Assembly: GCA_036172665.1 (NCBI GenBank)
Contig: CM069875.1
Span: 24,025,806-24,089,805, forward strand
Length of the DNA stretch: 64,000 nt
Origin: Prosopocoilus inquinatus
Taxonomy: Eukaryota; Arthropoda; Insecta; Coleoptera; Lucanidae
Direction: 5' to 3'
In this document: positions 915-60,950 of the stretch, in pieces
Layout of the letters: each line of letters begins with the position of its first letter
How positions within the stretch are numbered: the first letter of the stretch is position 1
Translations under genes and position numbers: made by a program
The notes under the pieces: generated by a model
What the model saw: the letters and a program-made list of their open reading frames with translations, nothing else
Database searches by the model: none
Told to the model about the DNA's origin: nothing

Positions 915-1211
915 TGCTGTAGTATTCTTCCGGGTAGTCCTCCGCGTTGAGTTCTCTAAAGAACTATTTGTCTTCTGACAACGTTTCGGCAAGGTCTCAC
1001 TTGCCATCTTCAGGTCTTCGCTGCTGCTTGCCTGCTTCTGCTCCTCGTCGTTACTCGAGTCACAGTGGCTTCTGGTCGCGCTGGTGGTGGTTTAAGTACC
1101 GTGTTGCGGTCACGCGTCGTTACGCTTGGTGGTTTTTCCGCTTGACTTCTTGTTGTTGGTTGATTGGGTCGTGCCTGTTGACTGCTTTCTCCTAATCCTG
1201 ATGGTCCGGGG
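915..1211 (-). repeat. Penelope pseudo-LTR, 3' copy
   Basis: This is the reverse complement of 2074-2371 with essentially no divergence. It starts TGCTGTAGTATTCTTCC and its inner end is at CTGATGGTCCGGGGTTC. The end of the element's reading frame lies inside it. Confidence 0.85.
975..1013 (-). ncRNA. Hammerhead-like core in Penelope terminal repeat (minus copy)
   Basis: On the minus strand: CTGAAGA (1013-1007), one extra U, helix II GGCAAG/CTTGCC with a 6-nt loop, GAAA (987-984), then CGTTGTC, which can form a 3-bp helix III ending in a GUC triplet. I could not find a good helix I, so activity is doubtful. Hammerhead motifs in Penelope terminal repeats are known from the literature. Confidence 0.5.
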
Positions 1212-2050
1212 TTCGCTGGTTTCTGGCTTCGGGTTACTGGTCCTCGACGGTCGGTGGATTTTCGGATCACTGGCCTCCAGGTGGGTGGTAGTCGTAAGGC
1301 ATCATCTCTGGTGTTTAAGTTCATCTGATGTTTCTCGATTTCTATCGCTTCTCGGATGATGCGTTTGGTCTTGTGTTCTACGCTGGCAATTGTTCTGGTG
1401 TTGTCGAAATCTATTTTGTGTGAAGTCGCTTTTACGTGTTGTGCCAATGATGATGTTTTCTCGTCCTTCTCGACGGCCTTTCGATGTTCTTCTCTCCTGA
1501 TGCTTATTTTTCTATTTGTTTGGCCTATGTAGACCTTGTCGCAATCTTGACAGGGAATTCCGTACACGCCTTGGCTTTCCAGTTGTATTTTAGTTTTGAC
1601 TGTTGGCAGGATGTTTCCAATTTTCTTGTCGGTGTTGAATGATGTCCGGATATTGTGTTTCTTGAGTATTCTGCTGATCTTCTCTGTTGTCCCTTTAACA
1701 AATGGTAGGCATGCTGTTCCTACTATATCTTTTTCCTCTTCCTGTGTCTTGGGTTTGCGTTGGTGTTCGGCTTTCCTGATTTGTTTGTCCTGATATCCAT
1801 TTTTTATTAAAGATGAGCGGATTTTCTTCATTTCTTCTACCTTGTTTTCTGAGTCAGCCAATCTTTGGGACCGGGTGACGAGGGTCCTTACCACTGATTG
1901 CAATTGTGCTGGATGGTGATGTGATTGTGCGTTCAGGTACCGTTCCGTGTGGGTTGGTTTTCGGTATACGGAATGTCCAAGGCTTCCATCTGGTTTTTTC
2001 TTTATAAGTACATCGAGGAATGGAAGTTCGTTGTTTTCTTCGATTTCCAT
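1010..2050 (-). CDS. Penelope-like element polyprotein fragment (RT C-terminus plus GIY-YIG endonuclease)
   Basis: The 346-residue frame starts in the last part of the RT/thumb region (LPFLDVLI and YRKPTHTERYLNAQSHHHP are typical Penelope motifs). A charged linker follows (about 60-110), then the GIY-YIG nuclease: GVY at 161-163, a CxxC pair (CQDC, 167-170) of the Penelope zinc motif, YIG at 174-176, catalytic-type arginines about 185-186 and later His residues (about 189 and 205). The C-terminal 60 or so residues are encoded in the terminal repeat. The first residue shown is not a true start, because upstream RT sequence is absent. The TGA stop is part of the CTGAAGA hammerhead-like box. It should be catalytically incomplete as a retroelement because it has no RT palm. 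Confidence 0.85.
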   Translation of the reverse strand: MEIEENNELPFLDVLIKKKPDGSLGHSVYRKPTHTERYLNAQSHHHPAQLQSVVRTLVTRSQRLADSENKVEEMKKIRSSLIKNGYQDKQIRKAEHQRKPKTQEEEKDIVGTACLPFVKGTTEKISRILKKHNIRTSFNTDKKIGNILPTVKTKIQLESQGVYGIPCQDCDKVYIGQTNRKISIRREEHRKAVEKDEKTSSLAQHVKATSHKIDFDNTRTIASVEHKTKRIIREAIEIEKHQMNLNTRDDALRLPPTWRPVIRKSTDRRGPVTRSQKPANPGPSGLGESSQQARPNQPTTRSQAEKPPSVTTRDRNTVLKPPPARPEATVTRVTTRSRSRQAAAKT

Positions 2051-2073
2051 CGTGAACTTGATCTTCGGATGGA

Positions 2074-2371
2074 ACCCCGGACCATCAGGATTAGGAGAAA
2101 GCAGTCAACAGGCACGACCCAATCAACCAACAACAAGAAGTCAAGCGGAAAAACCACCAAGCGTAACGACGCGTGACCGCAACACGGTACTTAAACCACC
2201 ACCAGCGCGACCAGAAGCCACTGTGACTCGAGTAACGACGAGGAGCAGAAGCAGGCAAGCAGCAGCGAAGACCTGAAGATGGCAAGTGAGACCTTGCCGA
2301 AACGTTGTCAGAAGACAAATAGTTCTTTAGAGAACTCAACGCGGAGGACTACCCGGAAGAATACTACAGCA
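2074..2371 (+). repeat. Penelope pseudo-LTR, inverted 5' copy
   Basis: This is the inverted partner of 915-1211. The near identity of the arms suggests recent insertion or a snap-back event during integration. Confidence 0.85.
2273..2311 (+). ncRNA. Hammerhead-like core in Penelope terminal repeat (plus copy)
   Basis: Mirror copy: CTGAAGA 2273-2279, helix II 2281-2286 with 2293-2298, GAAA 2299-2302, then CGTTGTC. It has the same missing helix I as its partner. Confidence 0.5.
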
Positions 2372-3118
2372 TTCAACACCCGCGGAAGCCTACGGATTAA
2401 CATATATATATATATATATATATATAGAGTGTTCCGTTTGGTCTGGGCGATATGTCACTTCGTTATTTTAAATAAAATGCCCTTTACATTTTTACATTTT
2501 CGGATTCCGGATTGAATTTTTATGTGACTTTGTGCATCACACATAGAGGCAAATGTAAACCGTTTTCGTATTATTGAAAGGCTCTCTCACTTACACCATT
2601 AAGAAAAATTCCAAATATCACAAGTTCTTACAAACAATTTAATAAACTTGATAATATTCAAACTACAGTTAACTATTTTTTTTAATGAGATGCCATGTCT
2701 TTTACGAGCTTTTACCATTAGTAAATGTACTATTTAATTCTCTCAAACAATTATGCAAAACTGAAATAGTAGTATTCTTCTTTAAAGCAGTGTATCTCAA
2801 CCTCTAGGTTCCGCAAAGGGATGTTTGGGGTTCTTCCGCAAATAAAAACAGAAATCACACCACAAAAATGTGTCGTATAAAAGTAACATAATGTCGATAT
2901 TTTGATGAAACATTAGATATCTCATATTTTAGTACTAAGGGAGTCCCTCTGAAAAAAATGTACTCTAGGGTTTCTCGCTCTACAAAAGGCTGAGAAACAA
3001 TGCTTTAAAAAAATGAATCTATTTCGTACAACCGAAATGAAGCGATTCAGTTGAATCATTTAAAGAACTTGCCTAGCTCGATGTTTGTTCTTGCCATGAT
3101 ATTGTGGATGTATATGTA
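2372..3118. other. AT-rich stretch without a gene
   Basis: It holds a (TA)n tract at about 2401-2426 and low-complexity sequence. I see no coding or RNA gene. Confidence 0.5.
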
Positions 3119-4387
3119 CGTGGGCTGCTGGAAAAGTTTCTGGAAACGGTATGAAAAAAAGCATGAAATTTGGTAAACGGTATCATTGTTTTTCGAAGTA
3201 TTCGCCTTTGACGTCAATACACTTTTGCATACGCTGGAACTAATTTCTAAAGCACGTTTTCCACTCTAAAGATGGTACCTCAGAAACCAGTGTCCGGAAT
3301 GTTTGAACTACTGCTTCAGTCGACGAAAATCGCTCACCACGCATTTTATTTTTGATATTTTGGAACAAAGAAATCATTAGGTGATAAATCAGGTGAATAT
3401 GGACAATGAGTCATTAATTCAACATTTTTCTTGGACAAAAATCAACTTTTTGACGGGCTGAATGAGAGCTGGCGTTGTCATGATGGAGAATAATTCGTCG
3501 ATTTCGATTGTTTCTTCTTATTTGATCGATGACTTCCGGCAAACAAATTGTAGTATACCAATCAGCATTCACGGTTTTTCGATCCTCTAAAGCCACGGTT
3601 GCTACATGTCCAGTTAAACCAAAGAAACAAGCAATCATTTGCTTCGCAGCACTGCGTGAACGGACAACTTTTGTTGGTTTTGGTTCATTTTGAAATACCC
3701 AAACGGTAGATTGTTGTTTATTTTCTGGCTCGTACGAATAGATCCACGTTTCTTCACCAGTAACGGTGTTGTAAACTAAATTTGAACGACCTCAATTGAA
3801 TTTCTTGAGCATTTCTTCGCACCATTTGACACGACCCTGCTTTTGCGCTTCTGTTAAATTGTGTGGGATACAACGATTGCAAAACTTTCGTACGTTCAAA
3901 TGATCATGCAAAATCTGGTATATTGCTTTCATGTCGATGCGTAAGGATGCTTGAATCTCACGGTATGTCACATGTCGATCTCGCTCAAGCATTTCACGCA
4001 CAGTATCTACATTAGTGGCAACAACAGATGTTGATGGACGACCTTCACGAAATACGTCACTGAGAGAGGTACGTTCACGCTGGAATTCGGCAAACCAATT
4101 ATAAACGCTGCTCTTTGATGGTGCTTCATCTCCAAAGCCAAACGAAGCCGGCGTTAGACCACATTTAAAATCTTAAAAAATCATGGCAAGAAAATTTTCA
4201 CGCGAGATTTCCATGTTTACACAAAATTAGTTTTTCTCAAATGCTGTACAAACAAAACTAGTTTACTTGGATAGGAACTGTCAATAGAATTATAGGCGAA
4301 AAACGTCAAATTATTCAAATATAACAGTTGATAAACGCTAACAATTCTAGACCTACTAGATTCCAGAAAATTTTCTAGCAGCCCACG
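3119..4387 (-). mobile_element. mariner element, copy 1 (inactive)
   Basis: This 1269-bp element has terminal inverted repeats starting CGTGGGCTGCTGGAAAA and is flanked by TA on both sides (3117-3118 and 4388-4389), as expected for the mariner family and its usual 1.3-kb size. It encodes a broken transposase on the minus strand. It is the same subfamily as the copy at 31641-32885. Confidence 0.92.
3240..4214 (-). pseudogene. mariner transposase, copy 1
   Basis: The minus-strand frame starts at 4214 and runs through an N-terminal helix-turn-helix region and the WIYSYEPENK and LHHDNASSHSA blocks of a mariner DD34D transposase. The frame is broken: a TGA follows EMLKKFN (near 3792), and there is a frameshift after the second catalytic aspartate region (near 3415-3440). 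The first catalytic position, normally TGDETW, reads TGEETW here. Both the TGA and the loss of Asp are shared with copy 2. Confidence 0.88.
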
Positions 4388-6204
4388 TATATACAGCCTA
4401 CCCTAAAAGCAAATAAAAAGTTGCGACATACTAAGCGAACATCAAAGCAACTAACGACAAGAATATATCCAAACTGTTACGTTGTTCACCTTGTGGACAA
4501 ATTTATTTAAATAAAAGAAAAACTAAGTATAAATCATATCCATCTCTTACTAAAAAAGTGTAGAAAATAAATCAGAGTTTTAAGGGATCAAGATATTCGA
4601 AATGAAGACTTCAATTTCCTTATTTTTAATAAAATGCAAGTCAAGTATCAGTCTTTGAAAATCAATAACCACCAAAATGCTCGCGACTGTAAATATGTAA
4701 CCCCATTTATGGATGGAGTAAAACGAGATAACACGGTAAATAGAACAACACATGCAGTTAACAACAAAACAACAATGTAGTTAAATGAACAACAATCTGG
4801 GAAGCCATTAAAATTAATTAAAATAGATTTCAAACTTAGCTAGTAAAGAAAAGATTGAATTTTCTGTTGAAACTAAAATTAAGAGAGTCGATTATTTTCA
4901 AAAGAAAAAAAAAGAGAAAGTAGGGAAAATGAATAGAGGGAAATACAAGAAACCCGAGATGCAACTCCGATGTAGAAAGAATAAGAATAGAGGAAGAATA
5001 AAGTCAACAGAATATTAAGGTAGAGTGACAGAACTGTTAGGAAAAAAATGGTAAGACGCAGGATGTAAAAGAAGGAATCGATACGAGAAATAAACTGAAA
5101 TTTAAGACTCTACGAACAAAGAAGATAAGAGAAGATGAGACAGAAGCAAAAGAAGAAAGTCAAATATGAATGTAGGAGAAAGAAAACTGAAGGAAAATAT
5201 ACAGGATTTCTAAAATGGATATTACAAAAATTTCTAAAATGGATATTACAAAAGAAAAGAGAAAACTAATCTGTAAGTGCTATAAGCCACATTACCACAG
5301 TGTGTAAACATCTGTTTACACTCAAAAGGCAACGGAACATTATTAAAATAACGAAGGCTGGTACTGGAGACAACTAACAGTTCAGTTTATTAAGAGTACT
5401 AAGAGTAGAGAAAGTATGGGAAATCAAAAAGGTCTTCGAACTCGGATCATATGAATTTGAACAGTTAAACGATCTGTCACCCAATCCCAGTTACCCAAAT
5501 TTTACAAGATAACTAATTAACTCCCAAAAGAAATTACTATTCCTCCGAAAAGCACTCTTCTAAACTCTTCTTTGAATTGGTCATAGCGATACTCAAAATC
5601 ACATAACATTCCCTCCATTCCGACTACCCTAGGTGGCACTAGTAAAAATAGGTCTTTAATATGGAAGGAATAAGAAATAAATCCTACCTACAAGAGAAGA
5701 AGTAGAAATAATAATTATGGTCTTCAAAATTTGTGAGAAAGAAAAACCTACAAGAAAAGAATAAGAATTCGGAAAAACCGCGACTGTAACAAATAACGGA
5801 GGAATGGTACTTCAAAAAAGAATTTACTAATTACATTCATATTATGCAAGAAAATGTAAATTCCTATTTAGAAAAAAAAAAAAACAGAACTGCAAGAAGG
5901 GAAAAATATGCATTAAATCATATCTTACGGAACTTTTTAATATACTATTATTGACAATTAAATTAACACAGTCTACTGTTTTTGCATTATCATGCCTATA
6001 AACAACCCAAACAAAATACTTTGTGTTATCTTATCTTTGTATGTATGTAATTCAATTTTGATAATTGCCTTGCATTCTTCTTTCTGAACAGCCTTAAGGT
6101 TGCCGACCTTATAAAAATGGTGACTTATCGTATAAATCTTTAAAAACATTGAAAGCTTTCATGGTTATCAAGTCATCTGATACGTTTGTATGTATAACAT
6201 TATT
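4388..6204. other. Intergenic, no gene seen
   Basis: AT-rich. About 4890-5260 is purine-rich on the plus strand (many AAAGAAGA-type runs) and includes a short direct repeat (TTTCTAAAATGGATATTACAAAA, 5209-5253). No open frame resembles a protein. Confidence 0.45.
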
Positions 6205-6469
6205 AACATATAAAATAGCGACATCATACTATCGCTTTTTGACCTAACATTGCAGTAGGATAGACAAATTGAAGCGGTATTTGCTCCTAATGAGTCCCCC
6301 ATGCAAGGCGGCCATGCTTGCGAATAAATTGGGCAAGTCGTTTTTGGTCTGCAGTGGGAATGTCGAGCTATGTTTCTGCTGAAGAAGCCCCAAGCAGGGC
6401 TGAAACAGCTGTCCAGAGGCTGCTCGAGTTTCTCACTGCAATCAAAAACGATTTGCACAAAATTTTTCT
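6205..6469 (+). mobile_element. Hammerhead retrozyme-like element, copy A
   Basis: This 265-bp insertion is flanked by an 11-bp direct repeat, ATAACATTATT (6194-6204 and 6470-6480). The left part (to about 6321) is in reverse orientation to the right part, with an inversion joint at CATGCTTGC/GAATAAATT. The outer ends (AACATATAAAATAGCG and CACAAAATTTTTCT) are the same as in copies B, C and D. It has no protein-coding capacity. It carries one complete hammerhead ribozyme. Confidence 0.85.
6364..6426 (+). ncRNA. Type I hammerhead ribozyme, copy A
   Basis: Core boxes CTGAAGA (6379-6385) and GAAA (6402-6405). Helix II is AGCCC/GGGCT with loop CAAGCA. Helix III is the minimal ACAG/CTGT pairing with no loop, ending in the cleavage triplet GTC (cleavage expected after 6413). 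Helix I is GTTTCTG (6372-6378) with CAGAGGC (6414-6420), with an internal loop (TAT opposite T), then CGAGC (6364-6368) with GCTCG (6422-6426). The tiny helix III suggests cleavage as a dimer. Confidence 0.85.
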
Positions 6470-6535
6470 ATAACATTATTCTGTACGAAACAAGAGTTGC
6501 GAAGAAAAATATGAATATGAAGCAATTTTTCGTTA

Positions 6536-6575
6536 GGACGAAGCTATCAAGCGACAGCGAAACGTTGAGTGTTCC
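6536..6575 (+). ncRNA. Degenerate hammerhead-like box (GAAACGTTGAGTG family)
   Basis: GGACGA, then GCTATC-AAGC-GACAGC (an imperfect 6-bp stem), GAAA (6559-6562) and CGTTGAGTG. It resembles the second core and helix II of a hammerhead, but the first box is mutated. The same tail recurs near 36.7, 50.4 and 57.57 kb. Confidence 0.35.
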
Positions 6576-22314: not shown

Positions 22315-25300
22315 TCAGCACTGCTCCAAAAATGAAATTTTATATAGTTCACATTTAAATTTAGACATACTTAAAGATTTTAGTGATTCATTTAATGGAT
22401 TATAAAGATGATAAATTTGAAAGCTGAAAGAACGTTCGAACAATGTGGTCCTATGGAGAGCTGGAGAAATTAAACCTCTAAATCTTGTTGTGATGTTATG
22501 TATATCACACCGGAACTTGATTTTGTAATATAAGTAAGGTGGTGTTTTTGTTAATAAAATTTTGTGATATAGTACAATGCATTGCAATTTCCTTCGATGA
22601 AACATGTTAAGCCATTTAATTTCCTTTAATTTATGTGTAATATGATCATACTTTTTTATGCCATAAATAAATCCCAAACACGAGTTTTGCATCATTTGAA
22701 TTCTATTGGAGGTATATTGATCTATTGCAGAGTGATAAATTTGGCTGCAATATGAAAAATGAGACAGCACAAAGACTTCACATAATTGTTTTTTTAAATT
22801 AACAGATAGTTCGCGTCTATGGGGATAAAGTTTTTTGAGGTTCATATAAGCAATTCTGATATAATTAGAAATTTGGTCTCTAAAGCGCAATGAGTTATCT
22901 AAAACTAAGCCAAGACTTTTAGCGGACTGAACTAAAGGAACCTGAGCATTGTTAATAGTGATTTTTATAAGATCTTGGATGTCACGGCAAGCAGATTTAT
23001 TTCCAAAAAGTAAGAACGCCGATTTGTCAGGATTTAACTTGAGAGAATGGTTAACAGATGCCTCAGAGAGGTATGCTAAATCTAAATTTATCTGATCCAT
23101 TGCTGTTCCCCATTCAGAAGGTTTAAAGGACTTATAAAGTTGAGTATCATCAGCGAATAAATGTACATTACAAAACTTAAGATGCTTAAATATGTCGCTG
23201 GTGTATATGGAAAACAATAAAGGACCAAGAATGGAACCCTGAGGGACACCTCTTGCTAGTGGCAAACAATGAGAGGTTTTATCATCTAAAACTACGCTCT
23301 GGGTGCGACTGGTTAAGAATGATTCCAACAAGGCTATAGCATTTGCACTTAAACCAATGAACTTCAGAATTGAACATAAGACTGTACTACTAATCGTATC
23401 AAATGCTTTGCTGTAATCTAATAAAACAAGAGCAGTCAATTTACCTTCATCCGATGTAGCAATAATATCATCTAACACATTCAATAGTGCAGTGGTGCAA
23501 CTATAATTTTTCCTAAATCCGGACTGAATTGACGGTAGAATTTTTTCTTTAGTAATAAAAGACAGAAGTTGATCTTTAATAACTTTCTCAAAAACTTTGG
23601 ATAAGATAGGTAGAATACTGATTGGACGAAGGTGTTTATATTCAGATGGCTGAGCGATTTTAGAGATAGGTAACACAAGAGCATGTTTCCATATATCAGG
23701 AAACTTACTGGTAAAAATGCACTCATTAATTATGTGAATAATAAACGGGACTATATGAGGAGAACACAACTTTAACATTGTAATATTGATGTGATCATCT
23801 CCCATGGAGGACGATTTAATTGACATTAGAGTATTCAAGATGTATGGCGCATCCACCAACTTAAATTTAAAATTTTTACTGTTTGCAAGTGAAGAGGCAT
23901 ATTGGCTTAAATTTAAGTTGGCACTATCAGAAAAAGAAGGAACGCTATTTATGAAGAAATCATTAATACCGTTCACATTCGCCAGATGGGCAGGAATAGT
24001 TATCTTTGGTTTCTTTGGCAAATCAAGATAATCTAAATGTTTCCATAAGTCTTTTGGGTTTTTATAACGTTCGATGTACTGAAAGTACGCTCTCTTTTCC
24101 CTCAGTAAAGTGGAGTTGGTCAAATTACGTAAAGACTTATAGTAACTCCAGTGATGCAGCAATTTAGACTGTCTATACCTAGATTTTGCTTTGTCTCGAA
24201 GAGTCATAAGTAGTCGCATATTAGGAGTTAACCAAGGCAAATAAGGCTTCGTAAAACGTTTAGTAATCACTGGGGCGTGTTTATTAAACAAGTTTAAAAT
24301 CTGCGCATTAAAGAAAGATAGTTTATCTTCTACAAAATCTATATGAAAGATGTAATTAAAGGGAATACGTTGCAAATCAAATGTAAAAGAATCGTGGTTA
24401 ATGTTGCTGAAGCATCGAAAAGTTCTATATCGGACGGTTGAAGGATTTTGGCAGATCACTGTGCAAAATACTGCATCGTGGTCAGAGAAATGACAGTCTA
24501 TGATACCGCTCTGGGAAATGGACACATCATCGGTACAAATAATGTCAATAAGAGACATAGAAGATTCAGTGATGCGAGTGGGTTGATTTATTATTTGCTT
24601 GGCACCTACCGTGTCTAATACATTAAGGAGATATGAGGAATCGAGATTATCTGTATTCAAGATATCGATATTTAAGTCTCCACAGCAAATAATTTGCGTG
24701 GATAATGGCAAGTGAGATGCAAGAGAAGCTTCGAGTTCACTAATAAATAATTTATAGCATTGCTGAGGAGGTCTGTAGAGAGATCCAACTATTATTTTCT
24801 CATGAACATATAAAATAGCGACATCTTACTATCTCTTTTTGACCTAACATTGCAGTAGGATAGACAAATTGAAGCGGGATTTGCTCCTAATGAGTCCCCC
24901 ATGCAAGGCGGCCATGCTTGCTATCAAAGCATAATGAAAGATTTTAGAAAAATTTTGTGCAAATCGTTTTTGCTTGCAGCGAGAACCTCGAGCAGCTTCT
25001 GGACAGCTGTTTCAGCCCTGCTTGGGGCTTCTTCAGCAGAAACGTAGCTCGACATTCCCGCTGCAGACCAAAAACGACTTGCCCAATTTATTCGCAATTG
25101 CGATGTAAGAATGATGAACATATAAAATAGCGACATCTTACTATCTCTTTTTGACCTAACATTGCAGTAGGATAGACAAATTGAAGCGGGATTTGCTCCT
25201 AATGAGTCCCCCATGCAAGGCGGCCATGCTTGCTATCAAAGCATAATGAAAGATTTTAGAAAAATTTTGTGCAAATCGTTTTTGCTTGCAGCGAGAACCT

Positions 25301-26400
25301 CGAGCAGCTTCTGGACAGCTGTTTCAGCCCTGCTTGGGGCTTCTTCAGCAGAAACGTAGCTCGACATTCTTCTGCTGAAGAAGCCCCAAGCAGGGCTGAA
25401 ACAGCTGTCCAGAAGCTGCTCGAGGTTCTCGCTGCAAGCAAAAACGATTTGCACAAAATTTTTCTAAAATCTTTCATTATGCTTTGATAGCAAGCATGGC
25501 CGCCTTGCATGGGGGACTCATTAGGAGCAAATCCCGCTTCAATTTGTCTATCCTACTGCAATGTTAGGTCAAAAAGAGATAGTAAGATGTCGCTATTTTA
25601 TATGTTCATCATTCTTACATCGCAATTGCGAATAAATTGGGCAAGTCGTTTTTGGTCTGCAGCGGGAATGTCGAGCTACGTTTCTGCTGAAGAAGCCCCA
25701 AGCAGGGCTGAAACAGCTGTCCAGAAGCTGCTCGAGGTTCTCGCTGCAAGCAAAAACGATTTGCACAAAATTTTTCTAAAATCTTTCATTATGCTTTGAT
25801 AGCAAGCATGGCCGCCTTGCATGGGGGACTCATTAGGAGCAAATCCCGCTTCAATTTGTCTATCCTACTGCAATGTTAGGTCAAAAAGAGATAGTAAGAT
25901 GTCGCTATTTTATATGTTCATCATTCTTACATCGCAATTGCGAATAAATTGGGCAAGTCGTTTTTGGTCTGCAGCGGGAATGTCGAGCTACGTTTCTGCT
26001 GAAGAAGCCCCAAGCAGGGCTGAAACAGCTGTCCAGAAGCTGCTCGAGGTTCTCGCTGCAAGCAAAAACGATTTGCACAAAATTTTTCTATTATTTTCTC
26101 ATTGAGTACATGAACCTCGTCCCAGAGTTGTTCAATTGTGTCATTAGAATTTAATACCTTAAATTTGAAACGATTATGTATATACATAGCCACACCTCCA
26201 CCACGTGTAGGTCTATCTTTTCTAATAAAAGAATAGCCTTCTATGCGTACTAAATCGCTTGAAATCAAATTTGATAGCCACGTTTCTGAAAGGGTTAAGA
26301 TATCAAAGTTATTGAGTCTAATATAATCGGATAATTCAATAACCTTCGGTACCAAAGATCCTATGTTGATGTGTGCGACGTTTACTGATCGATTATTCAT
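22315..26400 (-). CDS. LINE ORF2 (endonuclease plus reverse transcriptase), interrupted by retrozyme array
   Basis: The frame starts at 26400 and carries the APE-type endonuclease: SETWLS, then after the interruption CGDLNID and FSDHDAV. The reverse transcriptase follows, with LDYSKAFD, the RGVPQGSILGPLLF block and the FADD catalytic box at about 23143-23157. The frame is interrupted at 26090 by the hammerhead array (24804-26089) and a 13-bp duplication. Leaving out the array and one copy of the duplication, the two parts are in the same frame and total 2787 nt (928 codons plus stop) with no other stop. The insertion falls in the endonuclease between the SETWLS and GDLNID blocks, so this copy should not make a functional ORF2 protein. 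Confidence 0.88.
24791..24803. repeat. Target-site duplication, left copy
   Basis: ATTATTTTCTCAT, identical to 26090-26102. It is the 13-bp duplication made by insertion of the retrozyme array into the LINE. Confidence 0.9.
24989..25051 (-). ncRNA. Type I hammerhead ribozyme B1
   Basis: Minus strand: CTGAAGA at 25036-25030, 5-bp helix II, GAAA, palindromic helix III, GTC with cleavage expected between 25002 and 25001. Helix I is GTTTCTG/CAGAAGC plus CGAGC/GCTCG. Confidence 0.85.
25301..25363 (-). ncRNA. Type I hammerhead ribozyme B2
   Basis: Same motif as B1, exactly 312 nt away (core 25348-25342; cleavage expected between 25314 and 25313). The inversion joint lies 6 nt upstream of the motif, at 25369/25370. 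Confidence 0.85.
25370..25422 (+). ncRNA. Hammerhead ribozyme B3 (5' edge trimmed by inversion)
   Basis: Core CTGAAGA 25375-25381 and cleavage expected after 25409. The inversion joint removes the outer CGAGC strand of helix I, so only about 5 bp of helix I remain. Confidence 0.7.
25672..25734 (+). ncRNA. Type I hammerhead ribozyme B4
   Basis: Core CTGAAGA 25687-25693, helix II AGCCC/GGGCT (25694-25698 and 25705-25709), GAAA 25710-25713, helix III ACAG/CTGT, GTC 25719-25721 (cleavage after 25721). Helix I is GTTTCTG (25680-25686) with CAGAAGC (25722-25728), outer stem CGAGC 25672-25676 with GCTCG 25730-25734. Confidence 0.88.
25984..26046 (+). ncRNA. Type I hammerhead ribozyme B5
   Basis: Identical to B4, shifted by 312 nt (core from 25999; cleavage after 26033). 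RNA between the B4 and B5 cleavage sites would be a 312-nt monomer. Confidence 0.88.
26090..26102. repeat. Target-site duplication, right copy
   Basis: ATTATTTTCTCAT, identical to 24791-24803. Confidence 0.9.
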
Positions 26401-26586
26401 AATTTACACGCAAACATACATTTTGGCAATAAATAAGTATGTCAGCATAAAGTAAAGAAAACTGTATTGTAAAGAAAAAAAAACTCGAACAAAATAAAAC
26501 AAGAATTCAAAACAATGAAAAGAACCCGAGAGACTTGCTATTTATGACGGCGACCAGCGAAGAAGAGCAAGGTAAGCTACTACGAA

Positions 26587-27225
26587 TCAAGCGTTAAACA
26601 AAAGCTTATAGTTGTTTAGTGACGAAATGTTATGAATTTTGTTACTGATTTTAACAAATAAATTACCGTTGTTGGTAAAGACTTCGTTGCTACCATATTT
26701 TTTCTGAAGATCTTTGAGAAGCAGCGTGCGTTCGTGAGTTAAATCTTCCCGGATAACTACTCTTGTGCCCTTTAATTTCCTTTTATTATGAAATATATTG
26801 TTTCTTACAGATCGTCTGCAAAACTTGACAATCATGGGGCGATGAAGACCCTCCTTTGACCCCAATCGGTGACAACAATCGACGTCGGTTTCCTTTACCT
26901 CGATTCGTAACTTCCCTCGAAAAAAGTCGATAATAACTTTTTCGAGATCCTCATTGGGTGTTTCAGGCAGGTTGAAAATTCGAATATTATTTCTCCGGGA
27001 ATAGTTTTCCTGCAGTTCAACTGCACTTTCCAGATCTTTAATTTTGTTTTCCAACAATTCGACCTTCTCTGTTAATACATTGAATTTCTGATCCACAATT
27101 TTGCACAATTGATCACTGAGCTTGTCGAATAATTTATCAAAGAAAATAGAATCGGTGAGAACTTTTTCGACGACTTTTTGGATGAGTACTTCATCTTTAT
27201 CACTGTCTGATCTTAATTGTGGCAT
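26587..27225 (-). CDS. LINE ORF1 (coiled-coil, RRM-like nucleic-acid-binding protein)
   Basis: This 212-residue frame has an acidic N-terminus, a heptad-rich coiled coil (about 40-75), then the NYSRRNNIRIFNLPE signature at the start of an RRM-like domain, followed by a basic C-terminal region (HRLGSKEGLHRP, VIREDLTHER). This is the layout of L1-type ORF1 proteins, which trimerise and coat LINE RNA. It is intact and lies just upstream of ORF2. Confidence 0.85.
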   Translation of the reverse strand: MPQLRSDSDKDEVLIQKVVEKVLTDSIFFDKLFDKLSDQLCKIVDQKFNVLTEKVELLENKIKDLESAVELQENYSRRNNIRIFNLPETPNEDLEKVIIDFFRGKLRIEVKETDVDCCHRLGSKEGLHRPMIVKFCRRSVRNNIFHNKRKLKGTRVVIREDLTHERTLLLKDLQKKYGSNEVFTNNGNLFVKISNKIHNISSLNNYKLLFNA

Positions 27226-29599: not shown

Positions 29600-30382
29600 T
29601 ATTGTTACATCGCCGCGGGTCAGGATAGACACGCAGGCACCACCGACCGTTGTTTACCTGCTGACACTCGCGATGGTTACAGCACTTTCCCGAAGGAGTC
29701 CAGGCGTTTCTATTCGGTTCGAGAAATAGGCGCTCTAACTATACCGGGTGGAAAGGTTCAAACCCGAACATAGTAAAGTTCCATTGAGAACTACGTTTCT
29801 GTAGATTACTGCTTGCCATTTAAAGATACAAAAGTGGTAATGGTATTAAATGAAAAATAAAATTAAGGCCAATGTTATCGTGTTAAAATTGTTCCTATTT
29901 TGTTAATACTTTTGAAACAGAGATTAAATTTTTAAATTTCAAATGAAAAATGTAGTCGCCTTAGTATGTCAGATTTAAAGTTTGCAATTCAATAACAGAA
30001 TTTTGTACAATATGCTTCTTATTCAAAATAAAATTCCATTCATCTGTGTAGCATACTGACGATGAAAAACTGTTAGGATTTATTTCTTTGCTCCTGTATT
30101 GCTTCACAAAATACTTTCCTGCTATTCTTGTTAATTACAATACAATGTTGATGGCAACTGGATTTGTGGAATTGATCTTTTTTTTAATATTCTTTACGAA
30201 CATATAAAATAGCGACATCTTACTATCGCTTTTTGACCTAACATTGCAGTAGGATAGACAAATTGAAGCGGGATTTGCTCCTAATGAGTCCCCCATGCAA
30301 GGCGGCCATGCTTGCTGTCAAAGCATAATGAAAGATTTTAGAAAAATTTTGTGCAAATCGTTTTTGATTGCAGTGAGAACCT

Positions 30383-30445
30383 CGAGCAGCCTCTGGACAG
30401 CTGTTTCAGCCCTGCTTGGGGCTTCTTCAGCAGAGACGTAGCTCG
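30383..30445 (-). ncRNA. Type I hammerhead ribozyme C1
   Basis: Minus strand core 30430-30424; expected cleavage between 30396 and 30395. Helix I reads GTCTCTG/CAGAGGC, a C-G pair where copy B has U-A. Confidence 0.85.
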
Positions 30446-30536
30446 ACATTCCCACTGCAGACCAAAAACGACTTGCCCAATTTATTCGCAAAAATAATAA
30501 ATTGGGCAAGTCGTTTTTGGTCTGCAGTGGGAATGT

Positions 30537-30599
30537 CGAGCTACGTCTCTGCTGAAGAAGCCCCAAGCAGGGCTGAAACAGCTGTCCAGAGGCTGCTCG
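30537..30599 (+). ncRNA. Type I hammerhead ribozyme C2
   Basis: Core CTGAAGA 30552-30558; GTC 30584-30586 with cleavage expected after 30586. Helix I is GTCTCTG/CAGAGGC. Confidence 0.85.
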
Positions 30600-31640
30600 A
30601 GGTTCTCACTGCAATCAAAAACGATTTGCACAAAATTTTTCTAAAATATTCTTTACATTTGTGTGTTACTTATTCTTGAACAGTGTGAAACTTATTTAAT
30701 TCTTAGTACAATTGAATTTAAAACTGATTTAGTATCGACATGTGTCGATATTGATTGCCCATGGTATCAGTTCAAGTTTATTGATAGGGTCAGAAACAAT
30801 AGTATTTTTGTATGCAATGACGTAGATTACCATCCTAATAAAGAAAGAATTGTTGTAACTTAAACGACAAGAGTACCTACCTTTTTGCTATGTACAATAA
30901 TTCATAATGCTTTTTGACTGACGTATAAATTATTTTTCATTAATTGAAACAACTGAAAATTTCAAACCTGACACAGGCGACTAAATTTTTCGTTTAAAAA
31001 TTTTATTTATGTTCCGAAAGTATTAATATTTAGGAATAATTTTAACACCATAATATTGTCCATAATTTTCTCTTTTCTTTAATACCATTGCCATTTTTGC
31101 ATCTTCAAATGGTGAGCAGCAATTCACAGAAACATAGTTTTCAATACAAGTTTGCTATGTTCGGGTTTGAAACTTTCCACCCGGTATAAGGGAGGTCGGC
31201 GCGCGGTAGGGCAGTTCTTATCTAGTAAGCGAAGAATGTGAGGTATCACGAAGCCATAAACGGCGACGTAATAGAAGTGCGATTTGTTATTTATTTATAA
31301 CTTAGTGTTATAGAGTATTTCTAGTGTAGTGTATTTATTTGTATAGACGATTACGTCTTAATAAAGTATTTGAAATTGGTCAACGAAATTTAATTTGCGA
31401 ACCCCGAAATCGTAACAGTATGTTATTTTTGCACAGACATTTCGAAAAATAGGATTAGATGTGTATTTAACAGCTTCTCCGGGATAAATTATAAATTAAT
31501 AACTTGTCAAGGGAAACTAAAAACGTGTGTCAAACATCTTTCTGGTAGTTTTTGTCATAAAAATTTAAAATATTTTCCTTCCTTGTGATCAATTACATTG
31601 ATTGCCATGTAAACATCATAACATCAGTTTACAGACTATA

Positions 31641-34733: not shown

Positions 34734-34845
34734 AAAAATATATACATATTTCATATTTTATCAGATCTGATTATGGCAGTCTTACAAATCAGCATGCACA
34801 GTTATGATTCTGCCATAGTTAGGCCTTTACAATGTTAATGTTTGT

Positions 34846-35183
34846 TTTTGAAAAATTTTGTTGCAAATCGTTTTTGATTGCAGTGAAAACCTCGAGCAGC
34901 CTTTGTACAGCTGTTTCAGGCCCTGCTTGGGAATGTCGAGCTACGTCTCTGCTGACAAAGCCCCAAGCAGGGCTGAAACAGCTGTACAGAGGCTGCTCGA
35001 AGTTTTCACTGCAATCAAAAACGATTTGCAACAAAATTCTTCAAAAACTTTCATTATGCTTTGACAGCAAGCATGGCCGCCTTGCATGGAGGACTTATTA
35101 GGAGCAAATCTGCTTCAATTTGTCTATCCTACTGGAATGTCAGGTCAAAAAGCGATCGTAAGATGTCGCTGTTTTATCTGTTC
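34846..35183. mobile_element. Hammerhead retrozyme-like element, copy D (diverged)
   Basis: A 338-bp insertion flanked by GTTAATGTTTGT (34834-34845) and GTTAATTTTTGT (35184-35195), a 12-bp duplication with one mismatch. It lies in the opposite overall orientation to copies A-C but has the same two ends (GAAAAATTTTGT and TTTTATCTGTTC). The inversion joint is at about 34926-34930. It is the most diverged copy. Confidence 0.82.
34937..34999 (+). ncRNA. Hammerhead ribozyme, decayed (copy D)
   Basis: Helices are kept, but the first core box reads CTGACAA (34952-34958) instead of CTGAAGA and the cleavage triplet is GTA (34984-34986). The loss of the invariant core G predicts little or no cleavage. 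Confidence 0.7.
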
Positions 35184-35386
35184 GTTAATTTTTGTGTAAA
35201 ATTTGTTACAAAGTGAGGGAGTTAGGTATATCACAATAAATGTTTATTGCTTAAATTGATTATGAGATTGATTGCAGAGATTCATTGAGTATAGCCCCAA
35301 ACGTTGACTGGTGCATAATAAAATAAATTAAAAAATAAAAAGAAAAATATCTATTACCTAAAAATGAATTTTACAGCTATTAAACG

Positions 35387-35987: not shown

Positions 35988-37572
35988 ATTAACGGTTTAT
36001 TTTAGAATGTCCTATTTCTGATGATATCGAAATTGTAAAAACCTAACCTCAAAACAATCCAGTCGGCCATATGCATTTGCTATGCAGGTAAGCCAATCAC
36101 ACGGAAAGTAAGCTTGAAATATTCCAGGAGTATTTGATCATTGATCTAATTATTAGAACTCCAAAGGAAAACACTTCAAAGTAGAGATGGGCCAGGGAAT
36201 GAACCCGGTAGATACATTGAAAGCAACCATATGGGTGCATTCACCAGGGTGCATACACGAATGTATGGGTGCATTCAAAAATTTTAATTTCCCTCGCAAA
36301 TCAAACGAGAAATAATCTTTTCTTGATGTTATTTAATTGTTTGCAGATGGTTTACAGTAGTGTTGTGAGTCGCTAAAATTACCACGTTACCTTACGATAA
36401 ATTTCCAATGTTACCATAAGGTAACATTCATTATTGTTACCGTTAGTTACCGTTTATTACCTCTGTCATCAAAATAATGTAATTTCGGGTTTCGCATTTG
36501 CAAAATTCAAGTAAAACAATGAAAGAAATGGCCAAGGAATATTTTCGATTATTTAGGAAAAACGTAAATACTAAAAAAAAGGAAATAAATATTTCATAAC
36601 CTAAAATGACTTTCGTTTACGCATGAATTTATTTAGTGGAAATACATAATATTAAATATTGTAAACATTATTTTTAACTACAAAGTTTTATTAATCTCAA
36701 ACCGGACAAAAAAATGAAGGGAACACACTCAACGTTTCGCTATAAATTTATAGATTTATAGCGAAACGTTGAGTGTGTTCCCTTCATTTTTTTTATAGCT
36801 CAAGTGGCGACATCTATCGCCGAAGTTACCTATTACACTTTTAATTAAAAATGTGATATTTACTTATTCTTTTGATTAATTTGATACCGAATACGCATTA
36901 TATTTTCGGCTTTTGTTAAAAATAAGTGAAGTTTGTTCTTGTCCGATGAAAATTGTAAGTACAAAGTTTTATTAATCTCAAACCGGACAAAAAAATGAAG
37001 GGAACACACTCAACGTTTCGCTATAAATTTATAGATTTAAGGTAAGGTAACATTCATTTGTTATCGTTTCTTGCCGTTTGTTACCTCTGTCTTCAAGATA
37101 ACGTAATTTCGAGTTACACACTTGCAACATTCAAGTAAATTTAGTAATAGTTAAATAGTAATTTAAAAACACTAAGGCAGGCACTAAGGTTGCGGTAAGT
37201 GAACGGTCGAAGTGGTCAGACCAAACCACGTGATCACTTTTCTCAATTGGTGCTTGGTCAGAGGGTTTAATCGGACCGTTGACATGACGATTTTGTGCAA
37301 TTTGACAGTTCACTTAACTCAGCCAAAGTTAAACTATGGCACTTTTTTAAGCTGCTTTTCCTGCTTTGGAGAATTGGCGATTAGGGACAAATTAATAAAA
37401 ACAGCTGATTGAGTTAATGACTATGGCTTATGATCTACATGTTTTATGTTTTTGTTTTCACGTTTGAAGTTTAGTTTTTAGTTACTTTTGCTTTTAGTAG
37501 TGCTGCGGCGACACTGATTGTGGTACACGTGTTCGTTGTCAAGTTGAATGTTTTCGAGATTATAAAATTGAA
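35988..37572. other. Divergent intergenic region with repeats
   Basis: It separates the head-to-head starts of mRpL12 and NOL12, so it should hold both promoters. It also holds a TAGAGATGGGC-type element end (about 36183), a minisatellite-like block of GGGTGCATTCA (36231-36275), GTTACC-rich sequence (36390-36460) and an inverted/direct repeat at 36690-37040. Confidence 0.45.
36690..37040. repeat. Inverted and direct repeat with CACTCAACGTTTC motif
   Basis: AAACCGGACAAAAAAATGAAGG and ACACACTCAACGTTTCGCTATA occur at 36700-36755 and again, directly repeated, at 36975-37030. The inverted form (TATAGCGAAACGTTGAGTGT) is at about 36755-36785. The GAAACGTTGAGTG box is shared with the 6.5, 50.4 and 57.57 kb sites. 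Confidence 0.6.
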
Positions 37573-51910: not shown

Positions 51911-54900
51911 TCATATGCAAGGGCTTTCATAATTATATTCATCCAATGCCTTGTGCGTTCTCATATGTGTTCGTAATTTATCTTTCCGGCTAAACATTTT
52001 GTCACAAATCACACAGTTAAACGGTTTTTCTCCAGTGTGTGTTCTCTGATGTAAGCACAATTTATCCTTCCTGCTGAAGCTTTTGTCACATTTCGAACAT
52101 TTATATGGTTTTTCTCCGGTATGAATTCGAGCATGTCTTGTTAACTTGTCTTTTGCCTTGAAACCCCTACCGCATATATCACATGTCCAAAGTTTTGCCT
52201 TGTCTTCAAAAGAACCGTACATATTATTTTCATCCATGTCTTTGCTGCTGAAATTTTTGACTTCTACAGTGCACTCTGGAATCCTTGATAAAAGGGAATC
52301 AACATCGTCGCTAGGGGTTTTTTCTTTAAACCTGTAAATCAATAAAACACAATCATGACCTGAAATGTACAGCTGCGAACAGAAAATTTCGTACACCACT
52401 GCCATTCCACCGATGATAACGACAACGTGAAGAGAAACAGTTTTCACAAGCAAGTAACCTCACTTTTGGTTTCTGTCAAAAGAGTTTTTTTTTTATTTGA
52501 TTTGTTTCGTCAACTCAGCGGTGTGACGTCATAAATGTCGAATCAACGATCAAGGATATTTAAGCGTAACGCCCTTGTCAACGACCGATTACTCTAATTA
52601 TTAAGCCGAGAGCTTAGCTCAGATGCATCCAGATACGCAAAATATTTATTGCCAATCGGTTTCTGACGGGTTCTATCAAAAAAAAACAACCAATCAAAAA
52701 CAATCCGCAATAAATTTTGTGTATCCAGAAGAATGCATCTGAACTAAGCTCTCGGCTTAATAATTAGAGAAGAAGAATGCATCTGAACTAAGCTTAAGCC
52801 TGTTTTACATTATCATGTAAAATTAGAGATGGGTGCAATCGTTTGCACCGGTGGAATCAAGGAATGCACGCGGTATATTGACAATTTACCTACATTTACA
52901 TAAGAAATAAAAAATACTTCAAATGGTACCAAATATTAGTGTTGTTAAATTATCCGTAATTTATTTTTAATAGTGTTGTAAAGCCGAAACATTTCAACTG
53001 AAATATTTCACATAAATTTCATGAAACTTATTTTAAATTTGCCGCGCAGAAAGCGTCTGCGCATGATTTGAATTTGGATGGTAACGTAAACATAGGGCGA
53101 GTTCTTTATTTTATCAAGAAGCCTGCTGGATGGCATCAGTTCCATCAAAATCGTTCTTTTATTGCTGGATTCATCAACAATCGTTCTTTTATTCTAGTTG
53201 GTTTTCATTTCATCAGATGGCATCACAAATCCATCATTCGTTTCAGAGGGCATGTTCTTTATTTCAACGCAATTTTGTGGTTGAAAGCATCAGTGTTGGA
53301 ACCTGATGCCGTGACGTCATCTACTGATGGATGCAACAGATTAGGAATAAAAAAACGCTTTGCGTTCACATAAAATTCTTTTTAACCTCAAAAATTTTTA
53401 TTTATGTTTTTGAAATAATTGATCATTTTATCTAACTCTTGCATTGTCCTAAACATGATACACATACTAGTATAATTTCCAATTAATTGTAGATAGGTGC
53501 AACCAATTTTAAAAAATGCAAATAAAAGGAATAAAACTTTCACTTGACTTTCACTTATGTTTATAAAAGCGAGGTTAGGTTTGAGATTTCAACTTTCAAA
53601 TAGTTCCATCATCTGAAACGAATGATGGATTTGTGATGCCATCTGATGAAAACCAACTAGAATAAAAGAACGATTGTTGATGAATCTGAGTCATCTATCA
53701 AGCAATAAAAGAACGATTTTGATGGAACTGATGTCATCCAGCAGGCTTCTTGATGAAATAAAAAATTCGTCCAGATGATGGAACTGTTTGAAAGTTGAAA
53801 TCTCAAACCTAACCTCGTTTTCTTAAACGAGTGAAAATCAAGTGAAAGTTTTATTCGTTTTATCTGCATTTTTTTAAATTTCTTGCACCTACCGCTTCTG
53901 TAAAAATGAGATGTCTATAAATAAGTAGGAGTGCAAACAAGTTAAAAGTCAAGAAAGTACAAAACAAACCTAAAATTAATTGGAAATTTTACTAGTATGT
54001 GTATCGTGTTTAGGACAATGCAAGAGTTAGATGAGATTTTAATTATTTTAAGAACATAAATAAAATGTTTAATTTTTGAGGTTAGAAAGAATTTTATTTG
54101 AACGCAAAGCGTTTTTTTATTCCTAATCTGTTGCATCCATCAGTAGATGACGTCACTGCATCAAGTTCCAACACTGATGCTTTCAACCACAAAATTGCGT
54201 TGAAATAAAAAAACATGCCCATAAGCTGCTGGTTATACACATTTGCAGCTGAATTAAAAAAGTCGGGAAATGTAAAAAAATATATACGATTGTCTTAGTT
54301 TCTTCATATTCATATCTTGACGTCATCATTGGGCGGGCCTTTTCATGCTGCAGCTCTGCAGCAACGTTGCCAACCGTATAACTATTTTAGTAGTCAGTAC
54401 TATGAACGAATCTTCAGAATCGTTTGGATGCTTGGGGTGGATTTTGGATTTTGAGAACGGAAACAAAGTTCCGCTTCCATTTCCATTTAGTCAAGCGCGA
54501 TGAAACTCAAAAAAAGAAAAGAAAGGAAAAAATAAACAAGAGACAAACGAAACAGTTTGCAAGAAGGAAGATACAACAAAAGAAAAAGTTACACAATGAG
54601 AAACAAAATTTAATAGCCCTTTAAATTTAACGCTTTTGATACAGAATAGGCCCTAATGTCATCATTAAATACAGAATTTTCTTCAGTTTTCAAAAATGAA
54701 CATTTTATTGGGCTTATTTCTTGTAGTTCATAGGATAAATTGTGGAAAAAACTGCCTGTTTTATTATTTTTGTCTATATAAGACTTAGTAGGCTACGCTT
54801 CAATGTAATGCGATTATTTTTTGTTTTTATTAAATATTAAGGAACTCTGGTTCAAATATGTTGACGATTTTGACAGTTTTAGCTGTGTAAATAATTTCAT

Positions 54901-57900
54901 ATTAGGAGATTTAGATTTGACCATTTTAGGGATTGCTGTTATTGGCTGTCGTCGTTCACTTGGCAAAACTTATCAGTTATCATTAGTCACGTGACCGATG
55001 ATGATGACCAATATCAGCAATCCCTAATCTTCCAAGCAGGAAAAGCAGCTTAACTTCGTTGCGGTTCAAACTACCATACGGTTGAAAAATTTGTCGGCCG
55101 AAGAACCTAACCTACGTAAAAAGTCGTTTCCAACAGAAGGCTATAGGATAGACATATTTTCGCGTTGAAAGCAATTCATAGAATGTTTTGAACCTTATTA
55201 GCTATTTGATTACCTACTACATCATAACTTGAAAGAGTCTCGAAAATGCATTTTGAATACATTTTGAAATTATCGACCTGTCAGTGTCAGCTGTCACTGT
55301 ATAAAATAGTTCACTTCTGTACTTATTCTAAAAACATTTCTATACAACATTTGAATGTAGAAAACCTTCTACTTAACTCACAAATACAGTTTCAAGTTTA
55401 TGGATGTCAAATTACGGTAGCCATCTCTAAAATTTAATAGCCAGGACAAGAGCTGCTTTCTTTTGCTTAAAAGTTAGAATTTGGTTTTGAATAGTTTGGA
55501 TCTGGATTCTGTAACAGTTGTAACAAGGCACCTTACATTTAAATTATTGATTGATAGTTCGTCTGCAAATAACAGTAATTCAGTCCAAACAAAATATAAA
55601 AATAGTTTGATTCGAAGAGGAAAGGGGATTATCGATCCAAACTGAAATTTCAAAGAAAAGTGGGGATTAATCCGTTTGCAAAAGAACGTCTGTCTTTTAA
55701 ACTAAACGCGTCTGGACCACGTTTTTGTGAGCGAAAGAAAACACCTATTGCTACTTAAAAATCCAGGTAAAATCCGGATGGCGAAGATATCTCAAAAAAT
55801 CACTTATAACAAAAAAAAATGTATTTACATTTGATCGTAAAGTACTGCACCAAAGTTACATTTTAGTGCAAAAATCTTTCCTTGATCGGCATTTTGCTTT
55901 TTCCGCTGTGACGTCACCGTTAATTTTTTTTAACGACAACCCTAAGTTTTTTATCCAGTTTTCAGTTCTCCTTCATATCGCTTAAATGGTGATGATTAGA
56001 GGTGGGCGATACGAGAAATTCTAAATCGAATATCGATACAGAAAAAGTATCGATATACGATACAGAAAAAGTATCGATATACGATTCACAATTTCCCGTA
56101 TCGCCCACCTCTACGTTCTGTATCGATATATCCAACATGGATACGTATCGAACATCGGACGATATGTATCGATCGATATTTCGGTACGGCTAGCGTATCG
56201 GTACGTATCGATATATCGATTCATCGAGTCATCTCTAGTTAATACATTCTATATAAAAAGCGTAATGAAAATAACGTATTGACTATTACAAAGAATTTAT
56301 TAAAAACGTGATATTTTTTACCATACTGTTAATTAACTGGGAATTTTTAGTTCCGAAAGCCGTATGTATGTACGTCCTTATACCGGGTGTTCTGCGCCAT
56401 GTGCTCACGCTTCTAGAATCTTTATTTATTAATCGATTGACCTGAATTTTGGAGACAATAAACTAAACAAAAAATGGAATTTTCCGACATACAGATAGTC
56501 GTCATAGGACTTCCGGTTTCGCCGGAAGTGATATCAACTTTCTTATTTTAAATAGAACACCCCATATGTTTTTAAATATTTAAAATCTACAGATCATTAC
56601 GAGTTCGAATACGTATCAATTGTTAATTTTGGTTTCCATGACAACGAAAAAAAAAACTTTTTTATTTTTCAATCTAGAAAGCTATGAATCGCATTTTTTC
56701 GATCTAATGCGATCAAGTGTTTCGAAAAAATCACTCCTTTGATGGTATTTTGGTTTTTAACATTTTTACAGTATTTGAAATTTTCATTAGCTCTTAACTC
56801 ATCTTTTTCGATAGAACCTCATATGTTTCTTAGCTTAGTCCAACTGAACATTTTTTTCTGAATACGCTGATACCAAATACGTCATATTTTCTTTGAAAAT
56901 AATTTCAAATAGAGCATGTCTTATTGAAATTTTACACTCTCTTTATTTCAAATGACTTGATCGCATTAGATCGAAAAAATGCGATTCATAGCTTTATAGA
57001 TTGAAAAATAAAAAAGTATTTTTTTTTCGTTGTCATGGAAACTAAAATTAACAATTGATAAGTATTCGGACTCGTAATGATCCGTAGATTTTAAATATGT
57101 AAAAATATATAGGGTGTTTCATTTAAAATAAGAAAGTTGATATCACTTCCGGCGAAACCGGAAGTCCTATGACGACTATCAGTATGTCGAAAAATTTCAT
57201 TTCTTGTTTAATTTATCATCTCCAAAATTCAGGTTAATCGATTAATAAATAAAGATTCTAGAAAGGTGAGCACATGGCGCGGGACACTCGGTATGTTTAG
57301 GAATAATAATTCATTTAATTTAACCGAAATCGTAAGCCGCAGGTTCACGTTGAAAAGTTTAAGTAATAACGCGGAATCAGTACGGAATCTTCAACCATAT
57401 AAATACAAATAAATAAAATGCTTAATTATTCAATATTTCGGTACGTATCAATATCCGATATTTCGATACATATCGTTCGATATCTTGATACGTAACGACA
57501 TTCGATAGCCATAGCCTCGTCGAAGCTATTAATCAATGATATTGATATTAATAATTGATTAACCAATAGCGAAAACGTTGAGTGTTTTTTTCCTATCATA
57601 ATTCTGACCGGTTTAAGATTAAAAAAAAAAAAAAATTACGAAATTTGGTACATCAACACAGCTGACAATGTGTATCGATATATCGATACATCGATGCAGC
57701 CCTACTTTAGGTTTCAATTATCTGCTTAGGCAGATTCTGTTTTGCGAGTCCTTTTGGGTTTAGGATCTATTGAAAATCCGGACCAATTATCAAAACCCGT
57801 CCGGATGTCCCCGGACTGCCGTAAAACCCAGACATGTCCGGGGAAATTCGGACGTATGACCGCCCTAATCAAACCTCCGCCATAAAAACGTCTCAAAAGT

Positions 57901-60847: not shown

Positions 60848-60950
60848 AAATAGTTTAAACAGCGACATCCTACGATCACTTTTTGACCTAACATTGCGTT
60901 ATCATTGACAAATTCAAGCCAGTTTGCTACATAATAACTCATCCCGTAGC
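60848..60950. mobile_element. Retrozyme fragment, copy E
   Basis: AGCGACATCCTACGATCAC and TTTTTGACCTAACATTGCG match the left arm of copies A-D, followed by diverged sequence. No ribozyme remains. Confidence 0.65.

Follow-up and report, generated by a model that had tools for sequence, protein, structure and literature searches.

A hammerhead retrozyme family of the beetle Prosopocoilus inquinatus with head-to-head inserts and two fixed ends

A retrozyme-like insert occupies positions 24804-26087 of a stretch of 64,000 nucleotides (nt) from Prosopocoilus inquinatus (Coleoptera, Lucanidae; assembly GCA_036172665.1, contig CM069875.1, positions 24,025,806 to 24,089,805 of the forward strand), termed the window. 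For a host gene product, the mitochondrial L12 protein, the best-scoring named matches come from beetles (78-81% identity), closely followed by those from butterflies and moths. The whole of the insert is made up of 312-nt units, each containing a type I hammerhead ribozyme motif. The element is probably a metazoan retrozyme without long terminal repeats (non-LTR) that is moved in trans by a Penelope-type enzyme using two internal start sites, one per strand. Inserts of this family have two fixed outer ends, termed A and B, and most carry one of each; their arms meet at variable junctions, most are flanked by target duplications, and the A arms mapped run through the predicted cleavage point. 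The plan of fixed ends, one of each kind, recurs in a Penelope-like family of this genome. Retrozyme inserts show the anatomy of Penelope-type integration; the retrozyme would work like a Penelope-like element but is not a member of that group.

The insert consists of two arrays arranged head-to-head, with both halves facing outward and the left half on the minus strand. The unit is exactly 312 nt long with a GC content of 43.3%, and its positions are numbered from the first base 3ʹ of the predicted hammerhead cleavage site. The list of open reading frames (ORFs) holds no ORF of 150 amino acids inside one unit, no search having been aimed at coding capacity, LTRs, a primer-binding site or a polypurine tract. 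The insert and its host site, a long interspersed nuclear element (LINE), are composed as follows.

22315-26400, minus strand: LINE ORF2 broken by the insert; 22315-24711 matches RVT_1, the Pfam reverse transcriptase model
24789-24803, no strand: left copy of the 15-base-pair (bp) target-site duplication, CTATTATTTTCTCAT, from flank comparison
24804-25369, minus strand: arm running from the outer (B) end at unit position ~198 back through 1.8 units to position 257
25370-26087, plus strand: arm that starts at unit position 273 and extends over 2.3 units as far as the outer (A) end (~55-57)
26088-26102, no strand: right copy of the 15-bp target-site duplication, CTATTATTTTCTCAT, from flank comparison

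Removal of the insert together with one copy of the 15-bp duplication restores a minus-strand frame of 928 codons; the retrozyme landed in the LINE ORF2. The LINE itself spans 22315-27225 and comprises an ORF1-like frame (26587-27225) and the ORF2 frame. The minus-strand left half, the 15-bp duplication and the further copies in the window had been missed in a preliminary description of this DNA.

That description had identified the parts of a type I hammerhead, and all of them are found where it placed them: CTGAAGA (CUGAAGA in the RNA), a 5-bp helix II (AGCCC/GGGCT) with a CAAGCA loop, GAAA, the helix III halves ACAG/CTGT, the terminal GTC and a two-part helix I. It had also noted neighbouring sites 312 nt apart, which agrees with the unit length, and cleavage is predicted at 25721/25722. 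Five cores are present in the insert.

25002-25036, minus strand: type I hammerhead core (descriptor and local Rfam scan)
25314-25348, minus strand: type I hammerhead core (descriptor and local Rfam scan)
25375-25409, plus strand: type I hammerhead core at the arm junction, with a helix I that borrows junction bases (Rfam, 34.5 bits)
25687-25721, plus strand: type I hammerhead core, predicted cleavage after 25721 (descriptor and local Rfam scan)
25999-26033, plus strand: type I hammerhead core (descriptor and local Rfam scan)

Because the left half is the reverse strand of the same repeat, the hammerheads of the insert lie on two strands (three plus, two minus) and point outward. A descriptor composed after the motif had been seen matched the window eight times, every time in retrozyme copies, and a chance hammerhead was ruled out by the finding of no site in 30 first-order Markov simulations of the window. 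The covariance-model check proposed earlier gave a divided answer that is borderline overall. In a local scan with Hammerhead_1 (RF00163), the arm-junction copy (25369-25415) reached 34.5 bits against a cut-off of 34, while the four ordinary copies scored 30.6 bits (E 3.5e-5), under the cut-off; one of the five insert sites therefore passes, in the local scan only, and a scan of the whole window at the gathering cut-off listed no hammerhead. A 28-letter core pattern gave no match in viral contigs.

The exact 35-nt core is present in 129 of 144 motif copies recovered by a search allowing up to 5 substitutions. Mismatches per base amount to 0.0039 in the core versus 0.024 in the rest of the unit, yet 14 of 312 other 35-nt stretches are lower than the core. 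Helix III (ACAG/CUGU) has no loop; within a single molecule it would be reduced to two pairs and an AGCU loop, whereas two molecules could form eight pairs. In the predicted circle the paired fraction (0.61) equals that of shuffled sequences, with a lower energy (z -6.0), and sites A and B are expected to fall in unpaired stretches flanking the base of the long helix I. Covariation, assessed in 52 of 64 distinct variants (those with at least 85% identity), is weak, and the variants are close relatives: the pair 22/254 occurs as G-C in 20 variants, A-T in 25 and A-C in 7, and double changes in two pairs fill 22 cells against a mean of 10.9 over 300 shuffles, none of which reached 22.

Three further insertions, each with one A end and one B end, were found in the window independently of the genome census.

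6205-6468, no strand: second retrozyme insertion, with head-to-head arms and ends B/A, flanked by the duplication TATAACATTATT (6193-6204, 6469-6480)
30198-30644, no strand: third retrozyme insertion, with head-to-head arms and ends B/A, flanked by the duplication AATATTCTTTAC (30186-30197, 30645-30656)
34846-35183, no strand: fourth retrozyme insertion, an older one (~90% identity), with head-to-head arms and ends A/B; the two copies of its duplication (34834-34845, 35184-35195) differ by one mismatch

An old fragment of the unit (positions 117-189, 82% identity) lies at 60857-60928. Adjoining the second insertion, at about 6556-6571, and again at 36680-37040 is a repeat in inverted and direct copies that contains AGCGAAACGTTGAGTG and may represent another small repeat family. 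In the beetle's own genome (649.6 Mb in 173 contigs), the best 40 of 1175 candidate places yielded at least 171 retrozyme matches; since these 40 places alone were scored, the real copy number is higher. The elements mapped in detail, a best-scoring and non-random sample of the family, were drawn from 38 places among the matches listed and the three other window copies. These 42 elements comprise 34 with two arms, five with a single arm and three cut by an edge, leaving 39 complete.

The outer ends of these elements fall into two classes, defined by alignment as A (unit positions 49-76) and B (185-212). Among the 34 two-armed elements, 29 are A/B, one is B/B, none is A/A and four have another end. 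When the ends of the 29 A/B elements are placed by the target duplication, A falls at 52-60 in all 29 and B at 192-202 in 26, the remaining three lying at 185, 186 and 214. Flank comparison showed L031 and L033 to be a single duplicated locus, and L062 to have its left flank in common with L060; with L033 and L062 dropped, A/B ends are found in 28 of 32 two-armed elements. The flanks of L034 and L038, and of L063 and L064, are similar too. The sole B/B copy (L056, 1-2501) has old fragments of another Penelope-like family, identified by sequence match, on both sides, each facing inward.

Target duplications (score of at least 9) flank 27 of the 39 complete elements, compared with 4 of 300 mismatched flank pairs used as a control. 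The duplication is 12-13 bp long in 22 of the 27, and none of the 27 is an (AT)n duplication. The preliminary description had also offered the label satellite, which is unsupported because the copies are dispersed and most have their own target duplication.

Inner ends, by contrast with the outer ones, are scattered across the unit; arm junctions vary by locus, and the arms cover a wide range of lengths. Microhomology scored by exact match at the joints (at least 2 nt in 8 of 32) is uninformative because copies differ from the reference unit; overlaps were therefore taken from alignments and compared with simulated joins. By this measure, the two arms have 1 nt or more in common at the joint in 25 of 31 elements (35 junction rows minus L033, the second L044, L050 and L068), whereas half of 150 simulated joins did so. 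Furthermore, all mapped A arms run from position 1 on into 312, that is, across the cleavage point. The template must therefore have been continuous there, either as a circle or as an uncut multimer, rather than a linear monomer that had been cut and was copied starting at its 3ʹ end.

A mechanism can be proposed in which multimeric retrozyme RNA would be cut by its own type I hammerhead and then closed into circles. A reverse transcriptase/endonuclease of the Penelope type, supplied in trans, would cut both target strands with a stagger of ~12-13 bp, and each target 3ʹ end would prime complementary DNA (cDNA) synthesis on the retrozyme RNA at a fixed internal site. One primer would start at site A, ~55-60 nt beyond the cleavage site, and the other at site B, near 198. 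The two cDNAs would run round the circle (or along the multimer) and join mid-insert, which would leave a head-to-head insert whose outer ends are fixed and whose centre varies. Inferred components of this scheme are the enzyme, the RNA circle and the cleavage. The scheme has precedents in biochemical work on a Penelope-type enzyme from Anolis (PMC11167929). This enzyme cuts both target strands in vitro and extends each of them, and it begins reverse transcription within the RNA, at two sites that bound the tail. Most starts fall 111-118 nt into an ORF that has its hammerhead cut at 26 (PMC11167929); subtraction of these figures places the start 85-92 nt beyond the cut.

A Penelope-like family resident in the same genome obeys a comparable rule. 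It is represented in the window by a truncated element.

916-2401, minus strand: Penelope-like element, truncated, head-to-head, with a left end lacking the tail and a right end with a 31-nt tail, between (AT)n
2273-2309, plus strand: minimal motif resembling a hammerhead, recognised by eye in the Penelope-like element; the element ends 61 and 92 nt after 2309

Rfam gave no match for this motif, and Pfam none for the element's ORF at 1010-2050 (minus strand). Relatives of the ORF protein, taken from the best 120 of 257, mostly match PF26215, many also RVT_1 and two GIY-YIG; the best named relatives are from insects (Anoplophora, 59%; Pyrocoelia, 63%). The family looks recent, because it is 99-100% identical at all of the best 117 of 5029 candidate places in the genome, and a 922-codon frame is open in 12 of these. 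Pairs of neighbours lying within 8 kb (n = 30) are head-to-head in 23 cases, tail-to-tail in two and in the same direction in five. Both outer ends were retrieved for 20 of the 23 head-to-head pairs, and in all 20 one end lies at +61 and the other at +92, a further 31 nt, from the hammerhead-like cleavage site. Automatic scoring gave 18 A/B and two A/A pairs; the full count stands because the tail is seen in both of the latter, with one base change at the tail end. Each such pair is likely to be one insertion.

Several observations weigh against a retrozyme that is cut by its own hammerhead and moved by a Penelope-type enzyme with one start site per strand. In the minimum-energy structure predicted for the circle, core bases 277-280 are paired with 305-308, and a ribozyme folded in this way would be blocked. 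Five of the 34 two-armed elements (one B/B, four with another end) are exceptions to the A/B rule, and another five elements are one-armed. L043 and L050 have one junction in common, with an 11-nt overlap, at different target sites, which could also reflect copying of a whole inverted unit. The work on the Anolis enzyme showed no difference in start site between the strands (PMC11167929), which does not favour a strict rule of one site per strand. Additionally, the resident Penelope-like family lies in (AT)n at 39 of its 40 ends examined, whereas the retrozyme does not; the two sites are spaced ~141 nt apart in the retrozyme and 31 nt apart in that family; and no sequence similarity was found between the retrozyme and the window's Penelope-like element. 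Given the (AT)n targets and the absence of common sequence, this particular family is probably not the helper, and an origin of the retrozyme as a derivative of the window's Penelope-like element was ruled out by the lack of similarity.

Other explanations account for part of the evidence. It is unlikely that a LINE enzyme moves the retrozyme via ordinary target-primed reverse transcription, with inverted inserts produced by twin priming. Twin priming inverts just part of the inserts, and the second cDNA start is variable, whereas two arms are present in 34 of the 39 complete elements, with the second end no less fixed than the first; a second fixed end is not predicted by twin priming. Inspection by eye of the ends of the four window copies showed no poly-A and no other simple tail. 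In favour of this explanation, LINEs are present, and the 12-13 bp duplications and the variable, briefly overlapping junctions are also compatible with twin priming. LINEs and Penelope-like elements have both been named as candidate movers in print (PMC7229834).

It is quite improbable that the head-to-head unit is itself mobile and copied whole, its fixed ends being inherited and not remade at each insertion. The constancy of both ends and the common junction of L043 and L050 fit such copying, but the remaining junctions differ between loci (duplicated loci excepted), as do arm lengths. The chance that the family is a satellite DNA that unequal exchange has spread, its hammerhead being a relic, is very small: the units are tandem and 5 of the 39 complete elements are single-armed arrays, but dispersal, individual target duplications and fixed ends argue against it, as does the low mismatch rate of the core, with the qualification given above that some other stretches are lower still. 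Movement by a Penelope-type enzyme from two internal start sites remains the favoured account. A more general proposition has roughly even odds, namely that Penelope-type enzymes take RNA at two start sites at once, one per target strand; that retrozyme circles carry their own two-site landing platform beside the hammerhead; that the hammerhead region is part of the recognition signal; and that retrozymes are short non-autonomous passengers of Penelope-like elements.

The window contains other repeats. At 47-191 is an inverted repeat with 68-nt arms 9 nt apart that looks like a small foldback element; microRNA models match it below their cut-offs. Ends resembling inverted repeats, CGTGGGCTGCT and AGCAGCCCACG, were noted by eye around a decayed region at 3119-4388, which we take to be perhaps a mariner-like transposon. 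Long inverted repeats occupy 56380-57294 and 53095-54212, with 290-nt arms at 91% and a nested palindrome of ~1.1 kb.

Which enzyme moves animal retrozymes is a standing question. Penelope-like elements have been proposed (PMC7229834, PMC11722881) because, like retrozymes, they carry hammerheads and occur in tandem, and because the two share hosts. The inserts described here provide anatomical evidence for that suggestion, and insertion anatomy is more direct evidence than common hammerheads or hosts. With two fixed start sites, one per strand, the retrozyme family makes the helper question testable, while the recent-looking Penelope-like family with the same rule is a natural dataset on how two target strands are handled, about which little is known so far.

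Metazoan non-LTR retrozymes combine a type I hammerhead with tandem units of ~170-400 nt, a GC content below 50%, target duplications of more than 4 bp and many dispersed copies, with insects among their hosts (Cervera and de la Pena 2020, PMC7229834). The beetle element resembles them in its type I hammerhead, its 312-nt tandem unit, its GC content, the duplications in 27 of 39 elements and its many copies. In the anatomical features compared, the class named in the preliminary description fits, and the reading as an insect retrozyme is supported, its functional half (cleavage and circles) being predicted. Unlike the published retrozymes, which are described as tandem repeats, most complete inserts examined here combine head-to-head arms with two fixed ends. 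Neither "inverted" nor "head-to-head" occurs in the main text of PMC7229834, and no report of head-to-head retrozymes was found in the open-licence literature, available largely as passages, so that one may exist. The retrozyme helix III resembles motifs of the axolotl, whose hammerhead families have a very short helix III with a palindromic loop and are expected to be more active as dimers (PMC7229834). The two differ in host, unit sequence and copy number, and dimer activity in the beetle is a prediction.

Among insects, pDo500 of Dolichopoda cave crickets is a hammerhead repeat known as a satellite. Likened by description alone, pDo500 and the retrozyme are both insect hammerhead repeats, the latter present as dispersed insertions. 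Penelope-like elements with hammerheads offer the closer structural parallel, being likewise head-to-head with target duplications and one of each of two ends, and with the hammerhead a short distance upstream of the ends (PMC3846280, PMC11167929). In rotifers, they form head-to-head pseudo-LTRs, one of which may carry a 31-bp tail, with 8-10 bp duplications (PMC3846280). Unlike these elements, the 312-nt retrozyme unit has no ORF for a reverse transcriptase/GIY-YIG endonuclease and is too short for one. The retrozyme family is a new one within a known class, and its prevailing head-to-head plan with two fixed ends is a variant not encountered in the literature searched.

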